DNA from: a virus | Reading direction: 5' to 3' (one strand) | Length of the DNA stretch: 42,781 nucleotides | IMG/VR virus record: IMGVR_UViG_3300010396_000064 | Location: 1 to 42,781 of that record | Shown here: positions 189 through 42,781 of the stretch, in pieces | How the letters are laid out: every line of letters begins with the position of its first letter | How positions within the stretch are numbered: the first letter of the stretch is position 1 | Translations under genes and position numbers: made by a program | Notes under the pieces: generated by a model | What the model saw: only the letters and a program-made list of their open reading frames with translations | Told to the model about the DNA's origin: nothing | The model's database searches: none

Positions 189-466
189 GGCAGCTTCCCA
201 AAGGCGTCATTCCCGAGTTCCCGCACAAACTCGCGCGGGAACAGCGTCACCGCCTCGACCTTGGGCTCGAAGAAGTGTCCTTCGGCTCCGCAGTGCTTGG
301 TGCTATCGAGCGCACGCTCGAGGCTGCACAGCTGCGGCTCGACCTCTCCGGTCACGAGCGAGAGGAAGCGCGGATGAGAACAGCGGGCGCAGGCGGCATC
401 ATCCAGACGCTGGCTGCCTTGGTACTTTGGTGTGAAGTGGACGCAGTCCTTGCAAAACTTAGACAT
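185..466 (-). CDS. small zinc-ribbon-like protein (93 aa)
   Basis: The start at ATG 466 is chosen because a strong purine-rich ribosome site (GGGGGAG) lies just upstream; a longer upstream reading has no such site. The protein begins MSKFCKDCVHF and has two CxxC pairs (C5/C8 and C26/C29). A further Cys-rich stretch around residues 47-65 is compatible with zinc binding. It overlaps the upstream gene by 8 nt and the downstream gene by 4 nt, so it belongs to the PL operon. Small cysteine-knuckle proteins are common in phage early regions; a specific function cannot be assigned. Confidence 0.7.
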   Translation of the reverse strand: MSKFCKDCVHFTPKYQGSQRLDDAACARCSHPRFLSLVTGEVEPQLCSLERALDSTKHCGAEGHFFEPKVEAVTLFPREFVRELGNDAFGKLP

Positions 467-671
467 GTCGCTCCCCCAGTGTCTGAATGACATAAGTCCA
501 AAAATCTGGACGGGGAGCGGGCGACTCGAGCCACTGCAGATGCAGCGCCCAGTGGGCGTAGTTGGCCTGCCCTGGGTAGCCGCGACGTGCGGCGTGGTCT
601 GCGAGGAGCCGACGGGCGAGCATTGCTTTGCCCAGTTCGGCGGTCGTCAGAATGGATTGCTCTCCGTCCAT
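459..671 (-). CDS. first gene of leftward early operon, unknown function (70 aa)
   Basis: The protein is helical, with Trp-rich stretches (HWALHLQWLES, PDFWTYVIQTLG). The start is set at ATG 671 rather than TTG 689. The predicted PL -10 box (680-685) ends 8 nt before this ATG, so the transcript would begin at or beside the start codon. No Shine-Dalgarno sequence precedes it, which fits leaderless translation. Similar short proteins of unknown role occur at the head of phage early operons. No domain is recognised. Its position suggests it is among the first products made after infection or induction. Confidence 0.6.
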   Translation of the reverse strand: MDGEQSILTTAELGKAMLARRLLADHAARRGYPGQANYAHWALHLQWLESPAPRPDFWTYVIQTLGERHV

Positions 672-679
672 GGAGAGCG

Positions 680-708
680 ACTCTAGCAAGGATTATTTGC
701 TAGCGCAA
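680..708 (-). promoter_or_regulatory. predicted early leftward promoter PL
   Basis: Reading leftward, the -35 box is TTGCGC (708-703), then a 17 bp spacer, then the -10 box TAGAGT (685-680). The -35 hexamer is identical to that of the predicted PR. The spacer contains one complete operator (686-700), and a second operator (705-719) overlaps the -35 box. A bound repressor would therefore block polymerase directly. The expected transcription start is at the ATG at 671. Confidence 0.65.
686..700. promoter_or_regulatory. left operator OL1
   Basis: GCAAGGATTATTTGC fits the repeated GCAA-N7-TTGC pattern. It lies exactly inside the spacer of the predicted PL promoter, mirroring the right-hand site at 1176-1190. 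Confidence 0.7.
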
Positions 709-719
709 GAATTATTTGC
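705..719. promoter_or_regulatory. left operator OL2
   Basis: GCAAGAATTATTTGC fits GCAA-N7-TTGC. Its centre is 19 bp from OL1 and it overlaps the PL -35 box. Confidence 0.7.
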
Positions 720-731
720 GGCGTTGTTCTT

Positions 732-1121
732 CTAGAAGCCTAAGCGCACCCGTGTCGGTGAGGGCCTCTTTTTGGGTTTGACCAGCCTCTTCCGTGCGCT
801 GGTCGATGTTTTTCGCTGCCGTTCTCGCGTCTGCTCGGCCAGTTCCAAGAGCTGATGCCGCGCTCGCTCAAGCTCCGTCGGAGAGCGGGGCGCGAGCGGT
901 GCAACGCAGAAAAGCTCATTGGGCGTGATCAGAAGCAGGTCGCACAGATGCGGAATATCGCGCGCGGGCGGCAGATTGCCGTTGTTAATCCAGTGCTGCG
1001 CCGTCTGTCGGTAGCCGCCCCAAGCGAAGCCCAGATCCGTGATCGTGATCCCGAGGCGCGCCATTGCCTCTTGTAGGCGGGCCACGATTTTCTTAGCAGT
1101 TTCTTCACGCGATTCAGTCAC
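732..1121 (-). CDS. CI-like phage repressor, short form (129 aa)
   Basis: The N-terminal half has the fold expected of a lambda-type repressor. Helix AKKIVARLQEAMARLG (residues 9-24) is followed by a helix-turn-helix at about 26-50, then DIPHLCDLLLITPNELF, typical of the later helices of HTH_3 domains. The C-terminal tail is short and very basic (KRLVKPKKRPSP). The S24/LexA-type autocleavage domain of lambda CI is missing. GTG 1121 is chosen because longer reading would run through the operators, and a -10-like TATTCT (1133-1128) lies 6 nt upstream. No ribosome site is seen, so the mRNA is probably leaderless, as for lambda cI from PRM. It lies between OL and OR and probably represses PL and PR. 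Confidence 0.75.
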   Translation of the reverse strand: MTESREETAKKIVARLQEAMARLGITITDLGFAWGGYRQTAQHWINNGNLPPARDIPHLCDLLLITPNELFCVAPLAPRSPTELERARHQLLELAEQTRERQRKTSTSARKRLVKPKKRPSPTRVRLGF

Positions 1122-1127
1122 ATCGGG

Positions 1128-1133
1128 AGAATA
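1128..1133 (-). promoter_or_regulatory. predicted -10 box of repressor maintenance promoter (PRM)
   Basis: On the minus strand TATTCT lies 6 nt before the repressor GTG. The base 17 bp further upstream begins a poor -35 (GAGACG). A weak -35 is what a promoter needing activation by its own bound repressor would show. The nearest operator (1135-1149) touches the -10 region and could mediate negative control. Confidence 0.45.
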
Positions 1134-1134
1134 T

Positions 1135-1149
1135 GCAAATAAAACTTGC
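1135..1149. promoter_or_regulatory. right operator OR3-like
   Basis: GCAAATAAAACTTGC fits GCAA-N7-TTGC. It is the site nearest the repressor gene and abuts the PRM -10 box, the position of lambda OR3. Confidence 0.65.
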
Positions 1150-1157
1150 CCGTCTCC

Positions 1158-1172
1158 GCAAGGATCGCTTGC
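1158..1172. promoter_or_regulatory. right operator OR2-like
   Basis: GCAAGGATCGCTTGC fits the pattern with extra symmetry (GCAAG...CTTGC). It overlaps the PR -35 box and lies just upstream of the PRM -35 region. Confidence 0.7.
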
Positions 1173-1196
1173 GCCGCAAGGAATATTTGCTACACT
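1169..1196 (+). promoter_or_regulatory. predicted early rightward promoter PR
   Basis: TTGCGC (1169-1174), a 16 bp spacer and TACACT (1191-1196). The ATG of the Cro-like gene begins 8 bases after the -10 box, so the predicted transcript is leaderless. The operator at 1176-1190 fills the spacer. Confidence 0.65.
1176..1190. promoter_or_regulatory. right operator OR1-like
   Basis: GCAAGGAATATTTGC differs from the OL1 site by two bases and occupies the same position relative to its promoter, between -35 and -10. Confidence 0.7.
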
Positions 1197-1203
1197 TGGG
1201 CAC

Positions 1204-1446
1204 ATGACGGGTATCGAAAAAGTCCTCGCGCTTGAAAATGGCTCTGCAACTGCAGTGGCGCGCCGATTAAGCGAGTACCGAGATTGCAGTCGACAGCAGG
1301 TTGAGTACTGGATGAAACGGGGTTATGTGCCCGGCAACTGGGCGCCCCTAGTCACTCGTGAATACGGTGTCTCCCTGCACGACCTCAACCCGACGGTTTA
1401 TCCCAAGGGCATCCCGGTCGCGCGACACGATGCGGTCTCAGCATGA
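1204..1446 (+). CDS. Cro-like/YdaS-type regulator (80 aa)
   Basis: This small protein starts opposite the repressor across a three-operator region. Residues about 13-50 form a helix-turn-helix: SATAVARRLSEY, then SRQQVEYWMKRGYVP. The QQVEYWMKRGYVP segment is characteristic of YdaS/Cro-type phage proteins, whose recognition helix is followed by a W-x-x-x-G turn. The ATG at 1204 has no ribosome site and lies at the predicted PR start point. The expected role is to shut down repressor synthesis and early promoters during lytic growth. It is the first rightward gene and precedes the replication genes. Confidence 0.75.
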   Translation: MTGIEKVLALENGSATAVARRLSEYRDCSRQQVEYWMKRGYVPGNWAPLVTREYGVSLHDLNPTVYPKGIPVARHDAVSA

Positions 1447-1738: not shown

Positions 1739-1839
1739 AGAGCGGGGAGGGCGAGGCACATCCAACGGATGCAAAAAGCGCCAGACACGCGGCGCTTTTT
1801 TCCTTTTGTCCGACAGAAATAAGGCACCGACGCCCATGA
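1732..1839 (+). CDS. possible 35-aa leader peptide before the replication gene
   Basis: GTG 1732 follows an ideal AGGAG ribosome site at 7 nt spacing. The frame reads VAKSGEGEAHPTDAKSAR, then HAALFSFCPTEIRHRRP, and its TGA overlaps the next gene's ATG (1836) as ATGA. The coding frame passes straight through the hairpin and T-run at 1773-1801. The peptide resembles no known protein. It could be a chance frame, or a translated leader whose ribosomes open the hairpin. Confidence 0.35.
   Translation: MAKSGEGEAHPTDAKSARHAALFSFCPTEIRHRRP
1773..1801. terminator. intrinsic terminator-like hairpin
   Basis: AAAAAGCGCC, an 8 nt loop, then GGCGCTTTTTT: a five-pair GC stem flanked by A and T runs, so it could work on both strands. 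It lies between cro and the replication gene. It may limit read-through from PR, or insulate the minus-strand promoter nearby. Confidence 0.6.
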
Positions 1840-4199: not shown

Positions 4200-4463
4200 A
4201 TGGCCGCTCGTCTCAACAAGCGCCATAGCGAGCTGGTCCTGGCTCGAATCCGTACCAGTCAGCTGGTCAACCGCTTGCAGAACAGCGTATTACCGGATGA
4301 GAAAGGCCAGGTCACGCCTTTGACGGCTGAACAGGTCCGTTCGGCCTGCTTTTTGATCGAGCGCACCCTGGCTCGAGCCGAAAACCCCAAGGACCTGAAC
4401 GTTACGGGGAACTTGAGTATCACGGTCGCGACGGGCATCCCGGATGCAAACGCAAACCGTTGA
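4200..4463 (+). CDS. putative terminase small subunit-like protein (87 aa)
   Basis: From ATG 4200 the protein reads MAARLNKRHSELVLARIR and then TSQLVNRLQNSVL, followed by LTAEQVRSACFLIERTLARA. This R-T-S-Q-L-x-N-R-L-Q plus a Q-V-x-x-A-x-x-L-I-x-x-T-L helix is a recurrent pattern in short phage proteins placed directly before the large terminase subunit. A longer in-frame start exists at 4158, but it overlaps the previous gene and has no ribosome site. The gene overlaps terL by 20 nt. Small terminases recognise phage DNA for packaging; the assignment rests on pattern and position. Confidence 0.55.
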   Translation: MAARLNKRHSELVLARIRTSQLVNRLQNSVLPDEKGQVTPLTAEQVRSACFLIERTLARAENPKDLNVTGNLSITVATGIPDANANR

Positions 4464-5799
4464 CTTAGGTTTCAAGCCCCGTCCCTGGCAGCTCAAAGCC
4501 CTGCAGAGCCTCAAGCGCTTCTCCGTCCTGGTCGTGCATCGTCGAGGCGGCAAGACGCTGGCGGCCATCATGAAGACCATCGATGCGGCGCTTCGGCTTC
4601 AGCGCCCCAATGGCCGCTTCGCCTTCATCGCCCCGGAGCTCAAGCAGGCCAAGGACAACGCCTGGCATTACGTACGCGACTATGCGAGCAAGGTGCCACG
4701 GACGCGCATTCATGAGTCGGAACTGTGGGTTGAGTTCGCTCATAACGGCGCCCGGATTCGCCTCTATGGTGCGGATGATCCCGACAACCTTCGCGGCGGA
4801 TATCTCGATGGCGTGGTGCTCGATGAGGTGGCGCAGCTCAAGTCCTACGTCTGGGGCGAGGTCCTGCTCCCTCAGCTGGCAGACCGGCAGGGCTGGGCGA
4901 TTTTCATCGGGACGCCCAAGGGCACGAACCTGCTGAGTGAGCGCTACTACAAGGCGCTGCAGGATCCGACCTGGTACGCCGAGTGCTTCACGATCGATGA
5001 CACCCACGCCATACCGGAGGCTGAGCTTGAGGTCATGCGGGCCCAGCAGACCGAACAGCAGTGGCGCCAGGAGATGCTCTGTGACTTCAACGCGAGCTCG
5101 GATGAAGCCCTCATTGGAATCGATCTGGTTAGAGCTGCGCTCGGCCGACACCTACGCAGCGATGCGTACGACTTTGCTGGAAAGGTTCTCGGTGTTGACG
5201 TGGCTCTCGGAGGTGGAGACAAGACGGTCCTCCAACTGCGGCAAGGACTCGCCGCCTTCAAGCCCGACGTCCTTGATCTGCGAGACCCCAAGCAAATAGG
5301 CGACTTCGTCGCGGTCAAGATCGACCAGTGCCGCGTCGATACGACCTTCGTCGATGCCTCCGGCGGTTGGGGCTCGGGCGTGATCAGCCGGCTGACTGAG
5401 CTCGGCTACAGTCCCATCGGCGTGGACTTTGGCGGCAAGCCGACCGACTCGCGCTTTGCCAACAAGTCGGCGGAGATGTGGTGGCAGATGAAGCTCTGGC
5501 TGGAATCGGGCGGAGCACTGCCAGACGATAACAGCTACATCGTCGATATGACCGGCCGGCTCTACGACTACAAGAACGCTGCGGGCAAGTTGGCCCTCGA
5601 GAAGAAGGAAGCCATGAAGGCGCGCGGCTTGAAGTCCCCGGACCTCGCCGATGCGCTCGCACTCACGTTTGCCGCGCCGGTTGCGGCCAAGCGCATTGAA
5701 CTGCCGGGATTTGAGTATCAGCTGCAGTACACGCGCAACGTCCACGAATACGACCCATTTGAACGCGCACAGCGCGAGCGGGAGCGAGTCTATGGCTGA
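4444..5799 (+). CDS. terL: terminase large subunit (451 aa)
   Basis: This is the packaging motor ATPase and nuclease that cuts and pumps DNA through the portal. The N-terminal ATPase has a deviant Walker A, HRRGGKT (residues 32-38). Walker B is VVLDE (124-128), and the coupling motif IGTPKG is at 155-160. The C-terminal RNase H-like nuclease begins with VLGVDVALGGGDKT, carries the conserved FVDASGG strand and ends with SPDLADALALTF, where Asp residues bind metal. The length is normal to slightly short for the family. It is overlapped upstream by the small-subunit candidate and downstream by a 66-aa gene. Confidence 0.95.
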   Translation: MQTQTVDLGFKPRPWQLKALQSLKRFSVLVVHRRGGKTLAAIMKTIDAALRLQRPNGRFAFIAPELKQAKDNAWHYVRDYASKVPRTRIHESELWVEFAHNGARIRLYGADDPDNLRGGYLDGVVLDEVAQLKSYVWGEVLLPQLADRQGWAIFIGTPKGTNLLSERYYKALQDPTWYAECFTIDDTHAIPEAELEVMRAQQTEQQWRQEMLCDFNASSDEALIGIDLVRAALGRHLRSDAYDFAGKVLGVDVALGGGDKTVLQLRQGLAAFKPDVLDLRDPKQIGDFVAVKIDQCRVDTTFVDASGGWGSGVISRLTELGYSPIGVDFGGKPTDSRFANKSAEMWWQMKLWLESGGALPDDNSYIVDMTGRLYDYKNAAGKLALEKKEAMKARGLKSPDLADALALTFAAPVAAKRIELPGFEYQLQYTRNVHEYDPFERAQRERERVYG

Positions 5800-7473: not shown

Positions 7474-10400
7474 ATGGCCAACTGGCGACCGTCAGCGCCG
7501 AGTGGGGTTGCGGTCACGCCGGCCTTCTCGGCTCCTCCGACCATCATCAACGGCTCGCCGCTCCCGGAGGGCGAGACCGGTCTTGCCTACGCGTTGCAAC
7601 TGGTGGTGGCCAATGCCGTCGGCGGCTTCACGGTGGCGATCACGGCAGGCTCACTTCCGGCGGGCCTGAATCTCGCATCGAACGGCGTGATCAGCGGGAC
7701 ACCGACCACGGTCACGATTGCGAACGTCACCTTCCAGGTCACCGACTCGATCTCGCGGAAGTCCACGCCGCAGGCCTTCCAGCTACAGATCATCACCGGC
7801 GTCTCGATCAGTACGGCAAGTCCACTGCCAGCGGCGACTCAGAATGCGGCTTATTCCACGACGCTGGCGGCTGCGGGCGGCCAGGCGCCCTACACCTGGC
7901 AACTGCTGAGCGCGGTACCCAACACCGGAGGCTGGATCAACCTGAACCAAGCGACCGGCGTGATCTCAGGGACGCCGGCAGCGGCTGAGACGGAGACGCT
8001 AAGCATCCAGGTGACCGACGCACTGGGTGCCTCGGCGACCAAGAGCTTCTCGCTCACCGTCAATACGGTCTCGGGACAGCTCGCCATTGTGACCTCAAGC
8101 TTGCCCAACGGCCTAGTCGGAAGTGCCTACAGTGCGCCCCTGGTGGCTTCCGGTGGCACACAGCCGTACAGCTGGACGCTGATCTCAGCCTCGCCCAATA
8201 CCGACCTGTGGCTGAACGTGCAGGGTGCGAACCTCGTCGGCACCCCTGAACTCAATGAGACTGAGTCGGTCACGCTGATGGTGACCGATGCGACTAACGC
8301 CACGGTGCAGGCGACCTTCTCGCTGGTGGTGACGGTCTCGGGTGCACTCTCGATTGTCACGCCGGCACCGGGCTACTACTCGGCGGCCTCTGCCTTGATC
8401 GGCGGAGTCTTTGCGCTACGCATGATTGCCCAGGGCGGACAGCCTCCTTACTACTGGGCCTTCTCGGGTCCGACGTTCTTCAACGTGGGCAGTGCGAGTG
8501 CTTCCAACTACGAGATGGACCCCTTCGGCTGGATCTTGGGGGCACCGGTCGGAGCCTCTGGCGCGATCGATGCGATGAACGTGATCGTCACCGACAGCAA
8601 TGGGGCCACCGCCACTCAGGCGGTCAGCGTGCACCTGTCGAACGGACTGAACGCCTATCCGATCGACCCCATCAGTGGCTCGATCAACCTGCCGGATGCT
8701 TTCGTCGGCACGCCTTACGGCTACAACTTCCACGCAACCGGCGGGGCGGGGGCGCCGTTTACGTACAACGTGACCTCGGGACTTCCGGCCGGCATGAGCC
8801 TGAACACCTCGGGCCTGCTCAGTGGCTCGCCCACCTCGAGCGGCTCAAGTCAGCTGATCATCAAGGTGCAGGACAACGGAAATACGAGCCTCACGACTTT
8901 CGCGGCGCAGATCAATATCCTGCCGAAGAACCAGGTCCTGCGCCCGGCCTACAACACGGGGAACGGCTTCTTCGTCTCGGGCGATGGCTACTTCCGCGAT
9001 CCCGGTGGAGTGCTCTTTCAGCAGCGCGGCACCGATCGCACGCACTACGACTCGGTCAGCTGGGCCAATAATGCCGCCGGCGCTGCGGCCGGCAATGCCG
9101 TGGTGCGGGTCTTCATGTTCGACGGCAGCACTTCGCTCGATACGAGCGGACCGGCATCGTTTGCGGCCAACCAGGTCCTCACGCAGTACCAGCCCAATGG
9201 CATCTTCTGCTGGCTGGTGCTCTCTGGGATCACGGCGACCAATAGTTGGGGCACTTGGGCCGGACAGGCCACTACGGGGCAGAGCTCGACCAACCTCCTG
9301 GCCCAGGCCTATGCCGACTGGATTACGTATCTACCGAACCTGATTCCGATTGCCAACGCGATCGGTATCAATATCGCCAACGAGTGGGGGCCCTCGACGC
9401 AGAGCGGCGGTGGCCCCACTTGGTTGGCCAGCTACCTGGGCGTTACCGCCAGCATCTCCAACATCTCGGGCAACACGATCACGCTGTCCACGATCTCGGC
9501 GACTAATCCGTTTGCGAGTGCGCCTTTTGCCTACATCTCGAATGCCGGCGGAATCACCAGCCAAGTCGTGGTGCTCTCGGCTCCCGGTGGCTCGAGCGGC
9601 GCATGGACGCTGACGGTCCTGCTACAAAACGGTGGGACTCTGAGTGGCTACACCGGGGGCGGTACGCTGAATGCAGGTGTCGCGATCTTCCGCGCGGCCG
9701 GCTACTTAGGTCCCTTGATGATCGACTGCGCCGGCAACGGCCAGGACCCCTACTGCATCTTCAACTACGCCGCTCAAATTCAGGCGAGTGATACGCAGAA
9801 GAATTGCGTCTTCAGCTATCACAGTTACGGCAACACGATCTATTACCAGAGCCTCGTGCATTCGGTGACCACGGGACCCTCGACCACGGTCATCACGCTC
9901 AATTCCAATCTGCCGTATCACCCCTTCAGCCTCGGGACCACGAGCGGCGGCTTCATGGGCATCAACCAGTTCACCTTCACGGGTGCACAGGTCATGACGC
10001 AGCTCAACGGCACCTTCGGCTCGCCGACCAATTACTACGGATCGCAAGGGGCGTGGCAGCTGCACTTGAACGTCAACAGCACCGCCTGGACGACTCCCTA
10101 CACCGCCAACAGCGCGACCGTCACGGCCTACAGCACCGATGTGTCGGGGGCCGGCGAGTGGGATTATCGGGCACTGTATGCGGCGTTTGCGGCGCTGAGG
10201 TCCAGCGGCGTGTGCGTGGTGCTGGGCGAGTTTGGCTCATCCAACCAATCGGGCACGGAGAACACGCCGCAGAGCTGGGGCGGCAACGTCCAGAAGATTG
10301 CGATCGGCCAAGTGATCAGCGGCGCCGAAGCCAACGGCCTGGGATGGATACACTGGTCCTACGATGATCACGGCGGAAACAACCTTTTCAACCAGGCCTG

Positions 10401-12105
10401 GTTCTCGGAGACGCAGCAAGGGGGAGCCAATTCCGGCCAGTACCTGAACGAAGCGCAGCTCACGGCCACCGGACTGAACATCATCAACAATCCGCGCACG
10501 GGACTGCGGGCGCTCGCGCAGGAGCCGACCACCTTCACCGCGGGACCCACGCCGAACTTCTACATCTCGCCCACGGGTAACGATGCCAACTCGGGGACGC
10601 TGGCCGCTCCCTGGACGATCAACAGCCTCTCGCCCTGGTCGACCGGCTCGGCGCTCTCCAACTACAACACCAAGATTGCCGGCAAGGTGATTGGGCTACT
10701 GCCTGGGACCTATGGGGTCTCGGCGCTCATGCAAGCGGCCTGGACGGCCTTTGGCAATGCCACCAACGGCATTGCACTCGATGTCCCCGGTGGCACACAG
10801 GCGAATCCAACGCAGATCGTCTCGGTGAACTCGAGCGGCGTGTATACGCCTCGGACTGCGACCATCCAGGCGAATGACAATGGCTTCTTCGGCGGCTCAA
10901 ACTCCATCGCCCCTTCGATGATCGGCCAGAGTAGCAAATGCTCGGCGCGCGGCTGGGTGACCTTCGACGGACTCGTGCTCTCGGGCGCCTCGGTGTTCTG
11001 CATGACGCTGGGCGACATTGCCGGCACCAACACCGCGATTGCCAACGGCTATGTCGTGCAGAACTGCATCTTTACCGGGAATAGCGCTCAGAACTCCACT
11101 GTCGCCTCGGGCAAGAACGTGGCGTGCCTGACGATCATGACTGCTCGGGGCGCGGTCATCACGAACAACTGGTTTCACGATAACCAGGGATGGACCGACG
11201 GTGAGCACTTCTCGGCGATCTATCAGTGGGGACTGGGCGTAGGAACCGCCGGCACTCAGATCACCTTCAACACCTTCAAGAATTCGGCCGGTATCCAGCT
11301 GAAAGAGGATACCCAGTACGACATGAATGTGGCTTACAACTACATCGACATGTCGGTGTTCAATCCCGGCGGGCAGCTGCAGAACCTCTGTCCGATCTGG
11401 GGCGGCTGCGAGGACGGGAACAACAATGGCGGCAACACTGGTAATAACGGGACCTTGGCGCAATTCCACCACAACATTTGTATTTCTTGGAACGGGACGG
11501 CCGCGCTCAGTCCCGGCAACCTCGGCAGCACGTTCATCTCGCTCTGGTACGGCAACGGGCAGGGCTACTGGTCTTATCCCGTGGCCTGCTACAACAACAC
11601 GTTTGTGGCGAGTTCAAGTCTGAATGGTTGCGGCTTCCTCGCCTCCTCGGGGGGTGCCTCGACCCAAGGTTTTGTGCAGTTCTACAACAACGGCTTTTGG
11701 ACCGGCGCCTTCAACACGGTGGGTCAATACGGCTGGTTCTTCACCAACAAGAACGCCTTCAGCCTGATCGACTACAACATCTACGGGACGACTCCGAGCT
11801 CATCCAACTGGGCGAACTTCTCGGCCAATGGTTCTCAGGGCTTGGGCGCGATCTCGGCCACGGCGACCTCCTTTGCCAACTGGAAGACGCTCATTACCGG
11901 AGCCACCGGGCTCGATGCGCACTCCTCGACCAACGGGGTCAATCCTTTCAGCAACAACGGGATCTATGCGCTGCAGTATCAGGTCCAGAGCGGATCGCCC
12001 TGGTTCAACGCCGGCCGCGTCGGTGGCGTGGTGGCCGGGGCTTCGACCAACGTAGGAGCGTGGGATGGAACCTCCAGCCAGATCGGCTGCAACTTTGCGA
12101 CCTAA
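7474..12105 (+). CDS. giant Ig-repeat / GH5-like glycosidase / beta-helix protein (1543 aa)
   Basis: Three parts are visible. Residues about 20-485 hold putative-Ig repeats with the recurring pattern P-Y-x-W...L-P-x-G-L-x-L...G-x-I-S-G-T-P-T (for example GVISGTPTTV and GLLSGSPTSSG). Residues about 490-990 resemble a clan-A (GH5-type) TIM-barrel glycosidase. FVSGDGYFRDPGG is near the start, NIANEWG carries candidate acid/base Glu 637, and VVLGEFGSS carries candidate nucleophile Glu 919; LGWIHWSYDDHGG is the late Trp strand. From about 1028 a right-handed beta-helix follows, starting YISPTGNDANSGT. It probably binds and cuts surface polysaccharide as a tail fibre or spike. No signal peptide is seen. 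It sits far from the tail genes. Confidence 0.75.
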   Translation: MANWRPSAPSGVAVTPAFSAPPTIINGSPLPEGETGLAYALQLVVANAVGGFTVAITAGSLPAGLNLASNGVISGTPTTVTIANVTFQVTDSISRKSTPQAFQLQIITGVSISTASPLPAATQNAAYSTTLAAAGGQAPYTWQLLSAVPNTGGWINLNQATGVISGTPAAAETETLSIQVTDALGASATKSFSLTVNTVSGQLAIVTSSLPNGLVGSAYSAPLVASGGTQPYSWTLISASPNTDLWLNVQGANLVGTPELNETESVTLMVTDATNATVQATFSLVVTVSGALSIVTPAPGYYSAASALIGGVFALRMIAQGGQPPYYWAFSGPTFFNVGSASASNYEMDPFGWILGAPVGASGAIDAMNVIVTDSNGATATQAVSVHLSNGLNAYPIDPISGSINLPDAFVGTPYGYNFHATGGAGAPFTYNVTSGLPAGMSLNTSGLLSGSPTSSGSSQLIIKVQDNGNTSLTTFAAQINILPKNQVLRPAYNTGNGFFVSGDGYFRDPGGVLFQQRGTDRTHYDSVSWANNAAGAAAGNAVVRVFMFDGSTSLDTSGPASFAANQVLTQYQPNGIFCWLVLSGITATNSWGTWAGQATTGQSSTNLLAQAYADWITYLPNLIPIANAIGINIANEWGPSTQSGGGPTWLASYLGVTASISNISGNTITLSTISATNPFASAPFAYISNAGGITSQVVVLSAPGGSSGAWTLTVLLQNGGTLSGYTGGGTLNAGVAIFRAAGYLGPLMIDCAGNGQDPYCIFNYAAQIQASDTQKNCVFSYHSYGNTIYYQSLVHSVTTGPSTTVITLNSNLPYHPFSLGTTSGGFMGINQFTFTGAQVMTQLNGTFGSPTNYYGSQGAWQLHLNVNSTAWTTPYTANSATVTAYSTDVSGAGEWDYRALYAAFAALRSSGVCVVLGEFGSSNQSGTENTPQSWGGNVQKIAIGQVISGAEANGLGWIHWSYDDHGGNNLFNQAWFSETQQGGANSGQYLNEAQLTATGLNIINNPRTGLRALAQEPTTFTAGPTPNFYISPTGNDANSGTLAAPWTINSLSPWSTGSALSNYNTKIAGKVIGLLPGTYGVSALMQAAWTAFGNATNGIALDVPGGTQANPTQIVSVNSSGVYTPRTATIQANDNGFFGGSNSIAPSMIGQSSKCSARGWVTFDGLVLSGASVFCMTLGDIAGTNTAIANGYVVQNCIFTGNSAQNSTVASGKNVACLTIMTARGAVITNNWFHDNQGWTDGEHFSAIYQWGLGVGTAGTQITFNTFKNSAGIQLKEDTQYDMNVAYNYIDMSVFNPGGQLQNLCPIWGGCEDGNNNGGNTGNNGTLAQFHHNICISWNGTAALSPGNLGSTFISLWYGNGQGYWSYPVACYNNTFVASSSLNGCGFLASSGGASTQGFVQFYNNGFWTGAFNTVGQYGWFFTNKNAFSLIDYNIYGTTPSSSNWANFSANGSQGLGAISATATSFANWKTLITGATGLDAHSSTNGVNPFSNNGIYALQYQVQSGSPWFNAGRVGGVVAGASTNVGAWDGTSSQIGCNFAT

Positions 12106-24248: not shown

Positions 24249-27200
24249 ACATTGCGCAAGTCAGCTTTGCGAAGGGGGAAGTATCACCGATCGCAGCAGC
24301 CCGAACCGATGAGGCCTTCTACTCATCGGCGCTGCAGACCTGCTCGAACTTTTTTGTGCACCCCGAGGGCGGCGTCTCCAACCGTCCGGGGACGCAGTAC
24401 ATCGCCACCGTCGCCCAGACGGCCAACGGCTCTTATCTGGTCCCGTTCATCTACAACAACCAGCAAGCCTATCTGGTCGAGTTCACCTCGATCCCATCGG
24501 GAGGATCCCCTGGCTCGATCAACGTCTATGCGAACGGCGCGCTAATCCAGAGCGGCATTGCGACGCCATACCTCATCTCTGATCTGCCGAATCTACGCTG
24601 GGCTCAGTCGGCCGATACGCTCAACGTTACGGTGCAAACGCAGCTGCTCTATCAGCTCAAGCGCATTACGCCGACCAGCTTCACCTTCACCACCCCGACG
24701 CTCTACTTCGGCCCGTTCCAGGACTTAAACACCGACGGCACGACCTACGTGTACGTCTCGGGGACCGACGGCACGGTGACGATCACGGCGAGCTCGGGCA
24801 TCTTCAAGCCGACGCATGTGGGCGCACTCTTTACGATCCAGGAGCAGTACCTCTCATCGGTGATGCCCTGGACGGCCGATCAGACCTGGTCGACCGGAGG
24901 CGCGACCGTCTCGGGCGCCTACTGCCGAAGCGACAACAAGATTTACCAGGCGGTGGGCCCGCCGGGGAGCGGCGATACCAACACCGGACCCTTCCAGCCG
25001 GTGCATACGCTCGGCACGCAGTGGGACGGCAACGTGGGGCCTCTGACGGGGACGCCGGGATTTCAGATCGGCATCGAGTGGCAGTACGTCTCGACCAATG
25101 CGGGCGTGGCTCTGATCACCTCTTACATCAGCCCGACGCAAGTCACTGCGGTGGTCCAGGATTACAAAGGCATCGCCGCAAGTTTCCCGCCGACGGTGGT
25201 GGGTGGACCTCAGAAGAGCTCGACCTCTCACTTCACGGGCGATGGCTCCTCGTTGAGCTTCGGTCCCCTGGCTGGGATGACCACGCAGGATCCGAATCAG
25301 TTCTTCGTGACCATCGCCGGAGTCTTTCAGGACCCCTCGATCTTCACGATCACAGCGATCAACGGCAATATCGTTTTCTTCACCCCTCCAGCCAATGGCG
25401 CTGCGATCGCGGTCTCCCAAGTCACCGGCACGCTCAACAACATCTACGTCAACCTGGCGTCCGGTAATACGCCGGTGCCGATGATCGGCCTGTGCCTGTC
25501 AACGTATTGGGCCTTCGGTGCGTTCTCGCCGCTGCAGGGCTATCCAGCCGACTGCTGCTACTTCAACGATCGACTGACACTCGCGTCGACTCCGCTGCAG
25601 CCGCAGAGCTTTTGGACCTCCAAGGTTTCTGATTATCAGAACTTCGGTGTGAGCGACCCGCAGCTCGACTCGGATGCGATCACTGAGACCATCAACGCTC
25701 GCCAGCAGAACCCGATCAATAACCTGCTGCCGATGAATAACCTGCTGCTCGGGACGGCGTCTGCCTCGTGGCGCGCGGTGGGGAGCAATGCGATCGGCGC
25801 GATCTCGCCCAACGACATCACGCTCATCCCGCAGGAGTTCTTCGGGATGCAAAACATCCCGGTGGTCCAGACCGGCACCACGATCGTCTACGCGCAGTGG
25901 GGCGGACGCAAGATCCGCGACATCCAGTACAACTTCTATACCGATAAGTTTCAGGGTCAGGAGTTGACGCTGCTCGCGCGTCATATGTTCCCCTTCGGTG
26001 TGACGGCGCTGCGCATGGCCTACGCGCCCGAGCCCTATGGCCTGCTCTACATAGTGCGCTCGGACGGCAAGCTCTGTGTGGTGACCTATCTGCCGCAGAC
26101 ACAGTCCTTTGCGCCTCCGGAGCAACAGCTGATCGCCTGGACGACCTGGAGCACCAACGGGTTCTACGAGGACATCTGCGTGCTCCCGGAGAACGGCTCT
26201 TTCTCGGTCTACACCATCGTGCGCCGCGTGCTCGGTGGCGTGACCGAGCGCTATATCGAACGCTTTGCGCCTCGAGAGTATTCCAGCATCAGCGATGCCT
26301 TCTTCGTCGACAGCGGGCTCACCTACGACGGGCGCAATACCACTTCTGTAACGATGACGCTGGGCAACGTCCATGCGCCAACGCTCCAGGCCACGCTGGT
26401 GGCAGGACTTCAGCCCGCCTCATCCAACGCCGGCTATGGGACGGTGGGCTATGGATCGCTGACGCCGGCCGTCGACGCCAATGGCAATGTGATCGACTCG
26501 CTCTTCTATAACTTCGGAGCCAATTATCTGGAGCTCAACATCAGGAGCTCCACGGTCCTGGGCGCAGGCTACGCCGACTCGTTCCTAATCAATGGGGTCT
26601 CGCCAGGGGTGGCTTCGTACACCTTTACCGCGGGCATCAATAGCTACTTCTACAACAACCCGCCGGTAACCCTGGCGGTCGGTCAGACCTACAGCATTTC
26701 GGTCGGCTCGCTGGTCACCACTGGCACGGTGCTCGCGCAGGGGACCGGAACGCTGACCGCCTCCTCAGCCTCCGGCTGGGCTGGGTTTGTCGCAAGCGAT
26801 GTTACTCACAACAACGTGATCGCACTCAACGATCCGACCACCGGGGCTCTGATCTGCCGCCTTCTGATCACGGGCGTGACCTCGAGCACCGTGGCGAGCG
26901 TGCGTTTTCTCGATCCGGTGCCGGCGAGCCTGCTCAATGCCGCAACCGTCAGCTGGAGCTTTGCCCGCACGACCTTCTCGGGATTGCAGACCCTCGAGAG
27001 CCAAGTGGTCTCGATCTTCGCGGATGGGTCGGTCTTGCCGCAGCAGACGCTGAGCATCAGCGGCTCGCTCACGCTTCCGGTCGCGGCCTCCGTGGTTCAT
27101 GTGGGCTTGCCGTACACCAGTCAGCTGCAGTCGCTGAATCTCAACATCCAGAACGCCGAGACCATTCGCAATCGCATCAAGAGCATCCCGCGGGTGAGCT

Positions 27201-37827: not shown

Positions 37828-38817
37828 TTATTTCAACGGAGTCACTTTTCGCACGCCCCGGTCATACACTCCACGCGTCATCGCCATCGATGTATGCCCC
37901 GCTCGCTCGAAGGCTTTTTGGATATCGACGCTGTCGCTGATGTTCTTGGCTCGCAGGTCGTGGAACGTGAATCGCTCCTGCAGCGCGCCGAGCTTTAGGG
38001 CCTTCTTCATCGTCCGTTGCCACACAGCGCGGAATCCCTCCGATGTATAGGGCTTCCCGGACCGCGTGCGGATCACGTAGCCGCCGATGTGAACCACGGG
38101 CACCATCTGCCGAGCTCGCTCCAGGACGTGCCTAAGCGTGTCTGATTGCGCCACAAGCAGCCTCTTGCCGGTCTTGTGCTGCTCGAAATAGATTCCGTCA
38201 TCGCTGACGCTCTTCCACATCAGAGTGAGTAGATCGCCCTGACGCTGTCCGGTGATTAGCGCCAGATCCATAGCGACCCGAACGCGTGGGCCCGCGACGG
38301 TGTAGAGGGCCAGATATTCCTGGTCGGTAACGTACCGGCGTCGGCGCCGCGAGGCGTTACGCTCTACACCTAAGCACGGGTTTCGATCAGCCACGTACCA
38401 GCGGCCCACCATCTTGCGGTAGATGGCGGACAGCACAGCCACTTGGCGGTTCGCCTGGATCTTGCCCTTAGGCCGATCCAAGAACTGCCCGATATGCTTG
38501 GATGTGAGTTCGTCTGGCAGCATGTGACCAAACACCTTGTCCAAGAGTCCGAGGGCACGCGCATAGTCCTTCTGCGTTCGTGGCATTAGGGTAGGTAAGA
38601 CTTCGCGCTTGTAGCGCTCGAAGTGATCGTGTAGCCGGGCGCCGGCCTCAGGGATAACCGGCTTGGTACGCTCGGCCATGAACTTCCAGACTTCGTGCTC
38701 ATCGCCTTCGGTGGCGATCCTGATCGGTGGCTCATTGGGAGCCCGATACCAGTAGGCGCCATTGATCACGGTGACGCGGTCAGGAAGGTGGACGTTTTGG
38801 GTTTTTCTTCTGCCCAT
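37828..38817 (-). CDS. int: tyrosine integrase (329 aa)
   Basis: The enzyme recombines attP with the host tRNA-Phe site. An N-terminal arm-binding region (VINGAYWYRAPNEPPIRI) precedes a core-binding helical domain (about residues 60-150). The catalytic domain has the first Arg in LITGQRQGDLL, then KTGKRL (the Lys strand), HDLRAK (His and second Arg), AGHTS (second His) and the nucleophile in VYDRG. All six expected catalytic positions are present. It is the last gene of the leftward operon, adjacent to attP, with a DUF4224 gene just upstream. Confidence 0.95.
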   Translation of the reverse strand: MGRRKTQNVHLPDRVTVINGAYWYRAPNEPPIRIATEGDEHEVWKFMAERTKPVIPEAGARLHDHFERYKREVLPTLMPRTQKDYARALGLLDKVFGHMLPDELTSKHIGQFLDRPKGKIQANRQVAVLSAIYRKMVGRWYVADRNPCLGVERNASRRRRRYVTDQEYLALYTVAGPRVRVAMDLALITGQRQGDLLTLMWKSVSDDGIYFEQHKTGKRLLVAQSDTLRHVLERARQMVPVVHIGGYVIRTRSGKPYTSEGFRAVWQRTMKKALKLGALQERFTFHDLRAKNISDSVDIQKAFERAGHTSMAMTRGVYDRGVRKVTPLK

Positions 38818-38820
38818 GGT

Positions 38821-39039
38821 TTACATCTCGCGCAGGATTTCTAGGCGGGGTGTACTCCCTTTCCTGCGGGCTGTAAATTTTTGCGACGTCGCAAATAGAT
38901 CCCTGGCAACCAATGGATAGCCATCAGATGCCCGAGACCGAAACGGGATATCCATCTTGGCCAGGGCTTGCTTCTGCCGCTTCTGGTAGGTGTAGCCGGT
39001 TAGCTCTACCAGCTCTTGTGGTGTGAGCCACAGGCTCAT
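38821..39039 (-). CDS. DUF4224-like protein next to integrase (72 aa)
   Basis: ATG 39039 overlaps the nuclease stop as ATGA. The start MSLWLTPQELVELTGYTYQK and QKQALAKMDIPFRSRASDGY are the hallmark of DUF4224 proteins. These HTH-like small proteins are encoded immediately before many phage integrases. An excisionase or integrase-control role is often suggested. The gene ends four bases before int. Confidence 0.75.
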   Translation of the reverse strand: MSLWLTPQELVELTGYTYQKRQKQALAKMDIPFRSRASDGYPLVARDLFATSQKFTARRKGSTPRLEILREM

Positions 39040-39413
39040 TTGCGGCGGTCCTCCGCGTCTATATGCGATCCCCAACGAACCTCGCCCCGCTCCGCTACCT
39101 TGTTGTACGGCGGCTTGAAGCGCCGAATAAGGGCGATCTCAGCGTCGGCCATATCGATGATCCGGCCATCCCACTTGTAGATCGTGGCCTTGTTAAACGG
39201 GATCTGAGGCAGGTGCCGATAGCGGGTCTCGCAGTACTGAGCGCCAAAGTCCCTGATCTGCTCCTGCCGGTTGACTCGGTCTACGGCCTGGGTAGAAGCT
39301 CCGATGTACAGCAGCTCATCGTCTAGCCAGAGGAAGTAAATTCCCTTGCCGCGGACGCATTCAGGCAGTCCCTGAAAATCCTCCAGAGTCATATGCTTCC
39401 AGTCAGGTTGCAT
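39036..39413 (-). CDS. GIY-YIG nuclease-like protein (125 aa)
   Basis: The GIY-YIG core is visible: GKGIYFLWLDDELLYIGAS has GIY and YIG strands about 10 residues apart. Candidate catalytic Arg follows in VDRVNRQEQIRDF, and a Glu in MADAEIALIRRFKPPYN. The family cuts DNA with one divalent metal. Small stand-alone versions in phages may repair DNA or attack competing elements. ATG 39413 is chosen over GTG 39416. It overlaps DUF4224 by 4 nt. Confidence 0.75.
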   Translation of the reverse strand: MQPDWKHMTLEDFQGLPECVRGKGIYFLWLDDELLYIGASTQAVDRVNRQEQIRDFGAQYCETRYRHLPQIPFNKATIYKWDGRIIDMADAEIALIRRFKPPYNKVAERGEVRWGSHIDAEDRRK

Positions 39414-41544: not shown

Positions 41545-41956
41545 GGTCGTGCTCCCAGTAGTCCGGATCGGCATCGGGGATGAAGATCCCGTGTTCTGCA
41601 GCCCTTCGCTGTATAAAGCCCACATAGTCGCTGAACTCAGACTTGTTAAGACGTGAACTACGCTTGAGGGGTCGCAGGCGCTTACGTCCGAAGCCCTTAA
41701 TCGTTTCCCAACCAAAGCACTCTCCCAGCATGTATTCGTGGATGTCGTCCAAGTCCCAGCCGTCGAGATGCTTGGCGATAGGGGGATAGCACACGCCCCA
41801 CAGATACCGGTTCTGCTGCGTGGTGCGCTTGGACTTGTGCTCCTCAAGTTCCAAGCGCCAGGCCTTATCCATCGGCAGAGACGCGAGCAGATGCGCAATG
41901 CGCTGGATCACGCTGTCGCGTCGGAGCGCTGCCGGCAGGATGAACGACTGTTTCAT
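41528..41956 (-). CDS. ninB: NinB-like recombination protein (142 aa)
   Basis: ATG 41956 overlaps the ERF stop as ATGA. The sequence from MKQSFILPAALRRDSVIQRI contains KAWRLELEEHKSKRTTQQNRY, then LWGVCYPPIAKH and DLDDIHEYMLGECFGW, all typical of NinB/Orf family proteins. These bind single-stranded DNA and help RecA-independent or SSB-linked recombination. Position directly after the ERF-type annealase is usual. Confidence 0.85.
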   Translation of the reverse strand: MKQSFILPAALRRDSVIQRIAHLLASLPMDKAWRLELEEHKSKRTTQQNRYLWGVCYPPIAKHLDGWDLDDIHEYMLGECFGWETIKGFGRKRLRPLKRSSRLNKSEFSDYVGFIQRRAAEHGIFIPDADPDYWEHDRVEAA

Positions 41957-42648
41957 CGGCCGTTGTACCTCGGCTCCTCGCGCTCCTTCTCCATCGCCAC
42001 GGCGACGAGTTTCTTCCAGTAAGAGCGCTCGTTGCTCTTGAGGAACTTCCAAGCCGCAAGGCTCAGCTCGTGCTGCGTCTTCAACGTGTCGTTGAGGTCG
42101 GCCACCAGAAGGCACTTCTCATCGTCGAATACGTCACGTTCCAAGATGGCGCGCATGTTCTCGGCGGTGGTGACGGCCTGCTTAAGTTCCACCTCGGAGA
42201 GCTCGCGCTCGTTTATAGGATTGGGATCAATCTTGGCGGCGTGATGGCCGTTGGTGTGGTTCGCATTGGCCGCATTGCCATCGTCATCCACCTGGGCGAG
42301 TCCCACGATCGCAGCCAGTCCATAGCGTCTCGCATAGGTGATAGCGGAGCCTGCAGCTTGAGGCCCATCGTCTTTGGGATGCACGATCAGCGTGCTCTCA
42401 ACCCATTGCCCGGAAGCGTGAGCCAGGCGCGTCGTTACCGCCAAACCGTTCTCGACGGTCTCAGTGAACTGCATCACCGACAGCCCGTTGCTCGTGAGCT
42501 GCTCTCGACACGCATCCCAGCAGCTGGCTAGATCGGCGTATTTGCTCTTGAAGAACGGATTGGCACTGTCCTTCAGAGCGCCCACGATCTTGCCCTGCGC
42601 CTTAGCAAGCGCAGTAGCCAGTTCGTTGATCTGTTCACTCGTTCTCAT
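41953..42648 (-). CDS. erf: ERF-family single-strand annealing protein (231 aa)
   Basis: ATG 42648 has GGAG about 9 nt upstream. Longer readings overlap the previous gene in another frame. The N-terminal domain has the ERF features: AKAQGKIVGALKDSANPFFK, then SKYADLASCWDACREQL, GLSVMQF, and the highly conserved GSAITYARRYGLAAIVGLAQ with DDDGNAAN. It pairs complementary single strands during phage recombination. The C-terminal third is less conserved. The upstream gene spans the circle junction. Confidence 0.9.
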   Translation of the reverse strand: MRTSEQINELATALAKAQGKIVGALKDSANPFFKSKYADLASCWDACREQLTSNGLSVMQFTETVENGLAVTTRLAHASGQWVESTLIVHPKDDGPQAAGSAITYARRYGLAAIVGLAQVDDDGNAANANHTNGHHAAKIDPNPINERELSEVELKQAVTTAENMRAILERDVFDDEKCLLVADLNDTLKTQHELSLAAWKFLKSNERSYWKKLVAVAMEKEREEPRYNGR

Positions 42649-42781
42649 CGATCTGCTCCAGTAGTTCCTCGATGGCATCGGCTTCGGTGGCGCCGTAAGC
42701 GATGTATTTGTTCCCACCGTCATAGCGGTTGTCGTCGGTCGCGCACCAATCGCTCGAGCGGTCCGGGATCGGCGGATAAAC
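42635..42781 (-). CDS. small phage protein truncated by the window edge, completed by bases 12-1
   Basis: Reading leftward from 42781 gives VYPPIPDRSSDWCATDDNRY, then DGGNKYIAYGATEADAIEEL and LEQIDENE-stop. The P-P-I-P-x-R...D-W-x-A...Y-D-G and Y-G-x-T-E-A-x-A-I-x-x-L pattern is typical of short early-operon phage proteins near recombination genes. It overlaps ERF by 14 nt. Joined to bases 12-1, the whole protein is 52 residues. Confidence 0.75.
   Translation of the reverse strand, partial: VYPPIPDRSSDWCATDDNRYDGGNKYIAYGATEADAIEELLEQIDENE

Follow-up and report, generated by a model that had tools for sequence, protein, structure and literature searches.

A predicted lambda-type immunity region with five GCAA-N7-TTGC sites around a short repressor gene in a temperate phage

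The immB region of phages N15 and phiKO2, which encodes the repressor CB and Cro, carries five operators, three at OR and two at OL, and its repressor lacks conserved self-cleavage residues (PMC4997575). All five operators are bound by the phiKO2 CB, whereas phiKO2 Cro binds OR3 only (PMC4997575). In CP-933P of E. coli O157, a short repressor, PaaR2 (about 15 kDa as a His-tagged protein), faces a divergent YdaS that serves as Cro, the promoters PL and PR have the same −35 and −10 elements, and the operators found at both OR and OL are 18-bp inverted repeats with the consensus GTTTAGTAA; the paaR2 gene is leaderless, as is lambda cI, and is followed by a toxin–antitoxin pair (PMC8630535).

We compared these systems with a regulatory locus at one end of a 42,781-bp viral record (IMG/VR record IMGVR_UViG_3300010396_000064), the whole of which is called the window below. 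As in N15 and phiKO2, three operator sites lie between the repressor gene and cro and two at OL, the repressor lacks a self-cleavage domain, and the gene order is lambda-like. The window differs from these phages in its 15-bp GCAA-N7-TTGC sites, which do not follow their 16-bp T-A-N10-T-A pattern, and in the position of OL, which is found directly behind the repressor gene of an integrating phage rather than upstream of repA in a linear plasmid prophage. The locus resembles CP-933P in its short, putatively leaderless repressor, its divergent YdaS-like Cro candidate and, at the level of candidate promoters, the likeness of PL and PR with operators on both sides, but its operators differ from the CP-933P consensus and no toxin–antitoxin pair was seen behind the repressor gene. 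With lambda it shares the succession of OL, repressor, OR, cro and replication genes, the placement of OR3 over PRM and of OR1 and OR2 over PR, and a leftward integrase and recombination operon; it departs from lambda in having two OL sites instead of three, a repressor without a peptidase, another half-site and a distance of about 0.45 kb between OL and OR. By its predicted genes and sites, this is a compact immunity region of the lambda, N15 and CP-933P type with a peptidase-less repressor, and we consider it very probable (roughly 0.87) that the locus serves a temperate phage as its immunity region in the manner of those switches, where we infer both binding and promoter activity from the sequence.

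The predicted gene content of the record is that of a temperate phage. Profile matches identified an integrase (37828–38817), an excisionase (38821–39075) and an Erf-like annealing protein (Erf recombinase; 41953–42723), all on the minus strand, and PHROG matches an O-like replication protein (1806–2606) and a large terminase (4444–5799) on the rightward side. At the locus itself, the leftward repressor gene (732–1121) and the rightward cro (1204–1446) diverge from a stretch containing three of the sites, while the second cluster, OL (686–719), is accompanied by a PL-like candidate promoter and a 70-amino-acid ORF starting at 671. An intrinsic terminator (1773–1800, plus strand) separates cro from the downstream O-like gene at the position of lambda tR1. 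The order OL–repressor–OR–cro–terminator–replication, together with relatives carrying the motif at the operator place, bears out the lambda-like layout of left and right operators proposed in the original prediction. Such a strong terminator implies antitermination, and no N-like gene was recognized. Elsewhere in the record, a 1543-amino-acid ORF (7474–12105) has no confident PHROG match (best 0.0076).

The five predicted sites, two to the left and three to the right of the repressor gene, were all exact at the expected coordinates in a pattern count over the record, starting at 686, 705, 1135, 1158 and 1176. They are OL1 (GCAAGGATTATTTGC, 686–700), OL2 (GCAAGAATTATTTGC, 705–719), OR3 (GCAAATAAAACTTGC, 1135–1149), OR2 (GCAAGGATCGCTTGC, 1158–1172) and OR1 (GCAAGGAATATTTGC, 1176–1190). 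When oriented, four of the five read GCAAGnnnnnTTTGC, with OR3 on the minus strand, the exception being OR2 with GCAAG-N5-CTTGC. The whole record contains six exact matches to GCAA-N7-TTGC in comparison with 0.75 expected (sd 0.83; maximum of 3 in 100 shuffles). With one mismatch allowed, the count of 22 against 18 expected is at chance level, and the signal is thus in the cluster and not in the genome-wide frequency. Markov simulation of a 651-bp region gave more than two sites in none of 20,000 trials, and among all palindromes with 4-base half-sites and spacers of 0–12 in the whole record, only GCAA-N7-TTGC has as many as five copies in a stretch of 520 bp, with no other exceeding three. 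A position weight matrix (PWM) built from 25 sites of nine other phages, with the window left out, ranked the five sites 1–5 in the 42.8 kb (OL2, OR3, OR1, OL1 and OR2, in this order) with scores of 15.2–19.5 bits, followed by 13.0 bits for the next. A high frequency of the motif elsewhere in the genome would have spoken against the original prediction; the record holds a single further exact match, at 24256–24270, within a coding region and 14 bp past the start of the 24242–27439 gene. This match has PWM rank 7 and probably is due to chance.

The sites are closely interwoven with candidate promoters read from the sequence. Candidate PR (1169–1196, plus strand) consists of TTGCGC (1169–1174), a 16-bp spacer containing OR1 and TACACT (1191–1196); candidate PL (680–708, minus strand) has the same geometry, with TTGCGC (708–703), a 17-bp spacer containing OL1 and TAGAGT (685–680). 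The expectation that OL1 and OR1 occupy the spacers of promoters sharing the −35 element TTGCGC was thus confirmed for both candidates. Each matches the consensus at 7 of 12 bases, and a sigma-70 consensus scan picked up neither of them. The first four bases of the two −35 elements, TTGC, are at the same time the inner half-sites of OR2 (for PR) and OL2 (for PL), and the shared −35 is therefore largely a by-product of the operators. On the leftward side of OR, a candidate PRM −10 element, TATTCT (1128–1133, minus strand), is located about 6–7 nt before the GTG start of the repressor gene and has no recognizable −35 element; OR3 covers the −10/−35 spacer of this promoter, and OR2 is centered at about −44, not far from where OR2 activates in lambda. 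The ATG of cro is found 7 nt past the −10 of PR and that of the first gene of the leftward operon (459–671, minus strand) 8 nt past the −10 of PL. The transcript starts predicted from PR, PL and PRM fall no more than about two bases from the start codons of 1204–1446, 459–671 and 732–1121, respectively, and none of these three promoter-proximal genes has a Shine–Dalgarno sequence, in comparison with about 18 of the 45 listed starts in the phage. For these two reasons, the messages for the repressor, cro and the first leftward gene are likely leaderless.

The gene assigned to the repressor (732–1121, minus strand) encodes a CI-like prophage repressor of 129 amino acids with an N-terminal helix-turn-helix (HTH), the recognition helix YRQTAQHW and a basic tail. 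It requires the GTG at 1121 as its start, which is plausible. The protein matched PHROG transcriptional regulators at 3.8e-5 and 1.8e-4 and, weakly, HTH_26; no CI-family match exceeded the cut-off, no S24 match indicative of an S24/LexA peptidase domain was found in Pfam or NCBIfam, and a fold search gave only weak, generic HTH matches. AlphaFold predicted helices at 5–23, 27–33 and 38–47 and a long one at 81–112, at low confidence (pLDDT 58). The candidate Cro (1204–1446, plus strand), a YdaS/DicC-like protein of 80 amino acids with the recognition helix SRQQVEYW, showed two sub-threshold matches, to Phage_CI_repr (0.0011, 19.7 bits, cut-off 22) and YdaS (0.0074, 16.5 bits, cut-off 30). It aligns with the Cros of other phages bearing the same sites, being 30% identical to that of L092, and the best matches of its fold search, all weak, included YdaS and the Cro of Xfaso 1. 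Confident family matches were obtained for neither protein, and none in Pfam or PHROG for the product of 459–671. Searches for close homologues found none in IMG/VR for the repressor, Cro or terminase and none for the repressor in GTDB contigs, phage records or 398 genomes of one phylum, while Cro had only marginal matches in phage records and the PDB sequence search gave no real match.

Both proteins of the window fit the recognition-helix frame [S/Y]RQxxxxW, and with the Cro relatives included, the common feature at the start of the helix is [S/T/Y]-R-Q-x-x-x-x-W. At the aligned positions, the 434 repressor has Thr27-Gln28-Gln29, and its half-site reads ACAA. The HTH of the window proteins resembles those of the 434 repressor and Cro (ACAA...TTGT) in that Gln is the second base-reading residue, and the half-sites share the CAA core; the differences are an Arg at the equivalent of Gln28, a half-site with G rather than A as its first base and a site of 15 instead of 14 bp. 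An Arg replacing Gln28 would fit the change of the first half-site base to G, and the Arg-Gln that both proteins place at the start of the recognition helix may thus explain GCAA in place of ACAA. This common helix and the comparative sites suggest that the repressor and Cro would use the same operators.

In the lysogen, the repressor would bind OR1, OR2, OL1 and OL2, covering the spacers of PR and PL and the edges of their −35 elements, and so shut off both cro with the replication genes and the leftward recombination and integration operon. From OR2, centered near −44, it would be placed to activate PRM, a promoter with no −35, and binding to OR3 within the PRM spacer would provide negative autoregulation. 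Cro would bind the same set of five sites and favor the lytic path. We infer transcription activation, leaderless translation and the order of affinities as parts of this model. As the repressor has no self-cleavage domain, induction probably takes another route, through an antirepressor or a host factor.

The original prediction suggested scanning related phages for the motif. We collected the loci of relatives by similarity of the Cro protein alone, without the use of the motif, and found the motif at operator positions: of the 22 loci with an RQ helix, 12 had GCAA-N7-TTGC at a distance of 40–92 bp before cro, or 10 of 18 after removal of seeds and duplicates. Of the 17 viral contigs, 9 had the motif, as did 3 of the 5 genome contigs, these three being from Methylobacterium. 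Eight of the 12 loci have at least one further site about 0.8–1.5 kb upstream, at the OL position. None of 24 Cro relatives whose recognition helix is of another type (such as AQPSVSTW, STEAIRKW or KQANVWHW) had the motif; the tally was counted manually from the locus rows, and the associated P value of about 2e-5 to 3e-5 (Fisher test) ignores kinship and compares two sets from different searches. Tandem GCAA-N7-TTGC pairs found by scanning viral contigs were similarly located near CI/Cro-type genes: of 120 loci, 9 had an HTH gene no more than 300 bp away, in comparison with 0 of 120 for the reversed-letter control, although the nine include several near-duplicates and one seed, leaving about six independent cases.

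In uncultured phages (L245–L249 and L252) and Methylobacterium prophages (L262–L264), the same sites precede a YdaS-like Cro whose helix is of the SRQ or TRQ type, and all except L248, whose contig is too short, show further sites at an OL-like place. They differ from the window in other respects. Four of these phages (L245, identical to L092; L247, identical to L080; L246; and L249) have a repressor with an S24-type C-terminal domain, which the short repressor of L252 lacks, and in the relatives the exact OR sites usually number one or two, with a separation of 32 bp in the latter case, whereas the window has three. Given the mostly S24-type repressors and the different OR spacing, the promoter geometry is not transferable from the relatives. 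The consensus had been described as different and previously unseen. It does differ from the lambda half-site, but it is not unique, as both other phages and Methylobacterium prophages have it. A literature search of open papers with the literal motif led to nothing but an unrelated paper on quorum sensing and to no account of a GCAA-N7-TTGC phage operator, which speaks only weakly for the absence of one from the literature.

The comparative data bear on the alternatives to a switch in which both proteins read all five sites. It is possible, though in our view doubtful, that the full set is used by only one of the proteins and a subset by the other. There is a precedent in the CB and Cro of phiKO2 (PMC4997575), and the two helices, YRQTAQHW and SRQQVEYW, differ outside the RQ-W frame, but their RQ start is common and in the relatives the motif tracks Cros with an RQ helix. 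Exchanged roles, with the leftward 129-amino-acid protein of Cro or antirepressor type and the YdaS-like protein as the main repressor, appear improbable: the former lacks a peptidase and a CI-family match above the cut-off, and the latter has the better CI HTH score (0.0011), but PaaR2 and the N15/phiKO2 CB also repress without lambda-type self-cleavage (PMC8630535, PMC4997575), the order OL–repressor–OR–cro–replication places replication downstream of the YdaS-like gene as in lambda, and several relatives have an S24-type CI in the leftward and a YdaS-like Cro in the rightward position.

Even less is to be said for sites belonging to a host regulator or another DNA element. While GCAA/TTGC palindromes are simple enough to be read by host factors, phages that otherwise differ have these sites in the space separating divergent HTH genes, and their presence depends on the helix type of Cro, making such an origin very unlikely. 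With half-sites of only 4 bp, a short palindrome could in principle cluster by chance, but the absence of more than two sites in all 20,000 simulations and the independent recurrence in relatives leave this practically no room, and the counts already refute it. The locus, then, is real and well explained, very probably as an ordinary lambda-type switch with its own lock-and-key sequence, and its operator class recurs in about a dozen other phages and prophages.

More tentatively, GCAA-N7-TTGC may be a widespread operator class set by the Arg-Gln helix of the repressor and the YdaS-like Cro, represented here by a locus with three leaderless genes and a repressor not inducible through RecA-stimulated self-cleavage; we regard this full combination as a possibility only. 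The class offers a tight test case for predicting phage operators, and hence the immunity group, from two recognition-helix residues in phages with repressors that have little else in common. Should both the leaderless starts and the lack of a repressor peptidase prove true, the window would contain a compact switch that is not inducible by RecA-stimulated self-cleavage.

Two other arrangements were seen among the viral contigs. In three related contigs (L095, at 8866–8930, L014 and L034), a small HTH gene with the helix TRQAVSAW is preceded by three to four closely packed GCAA-N7-TTGC sites, and the operator class here takes on another layout. The viral contig L074, which is AT-rich, carries eight copies of GCAAAAGTTTATTGC at an exact spacing of 129 bp (1934–2851).
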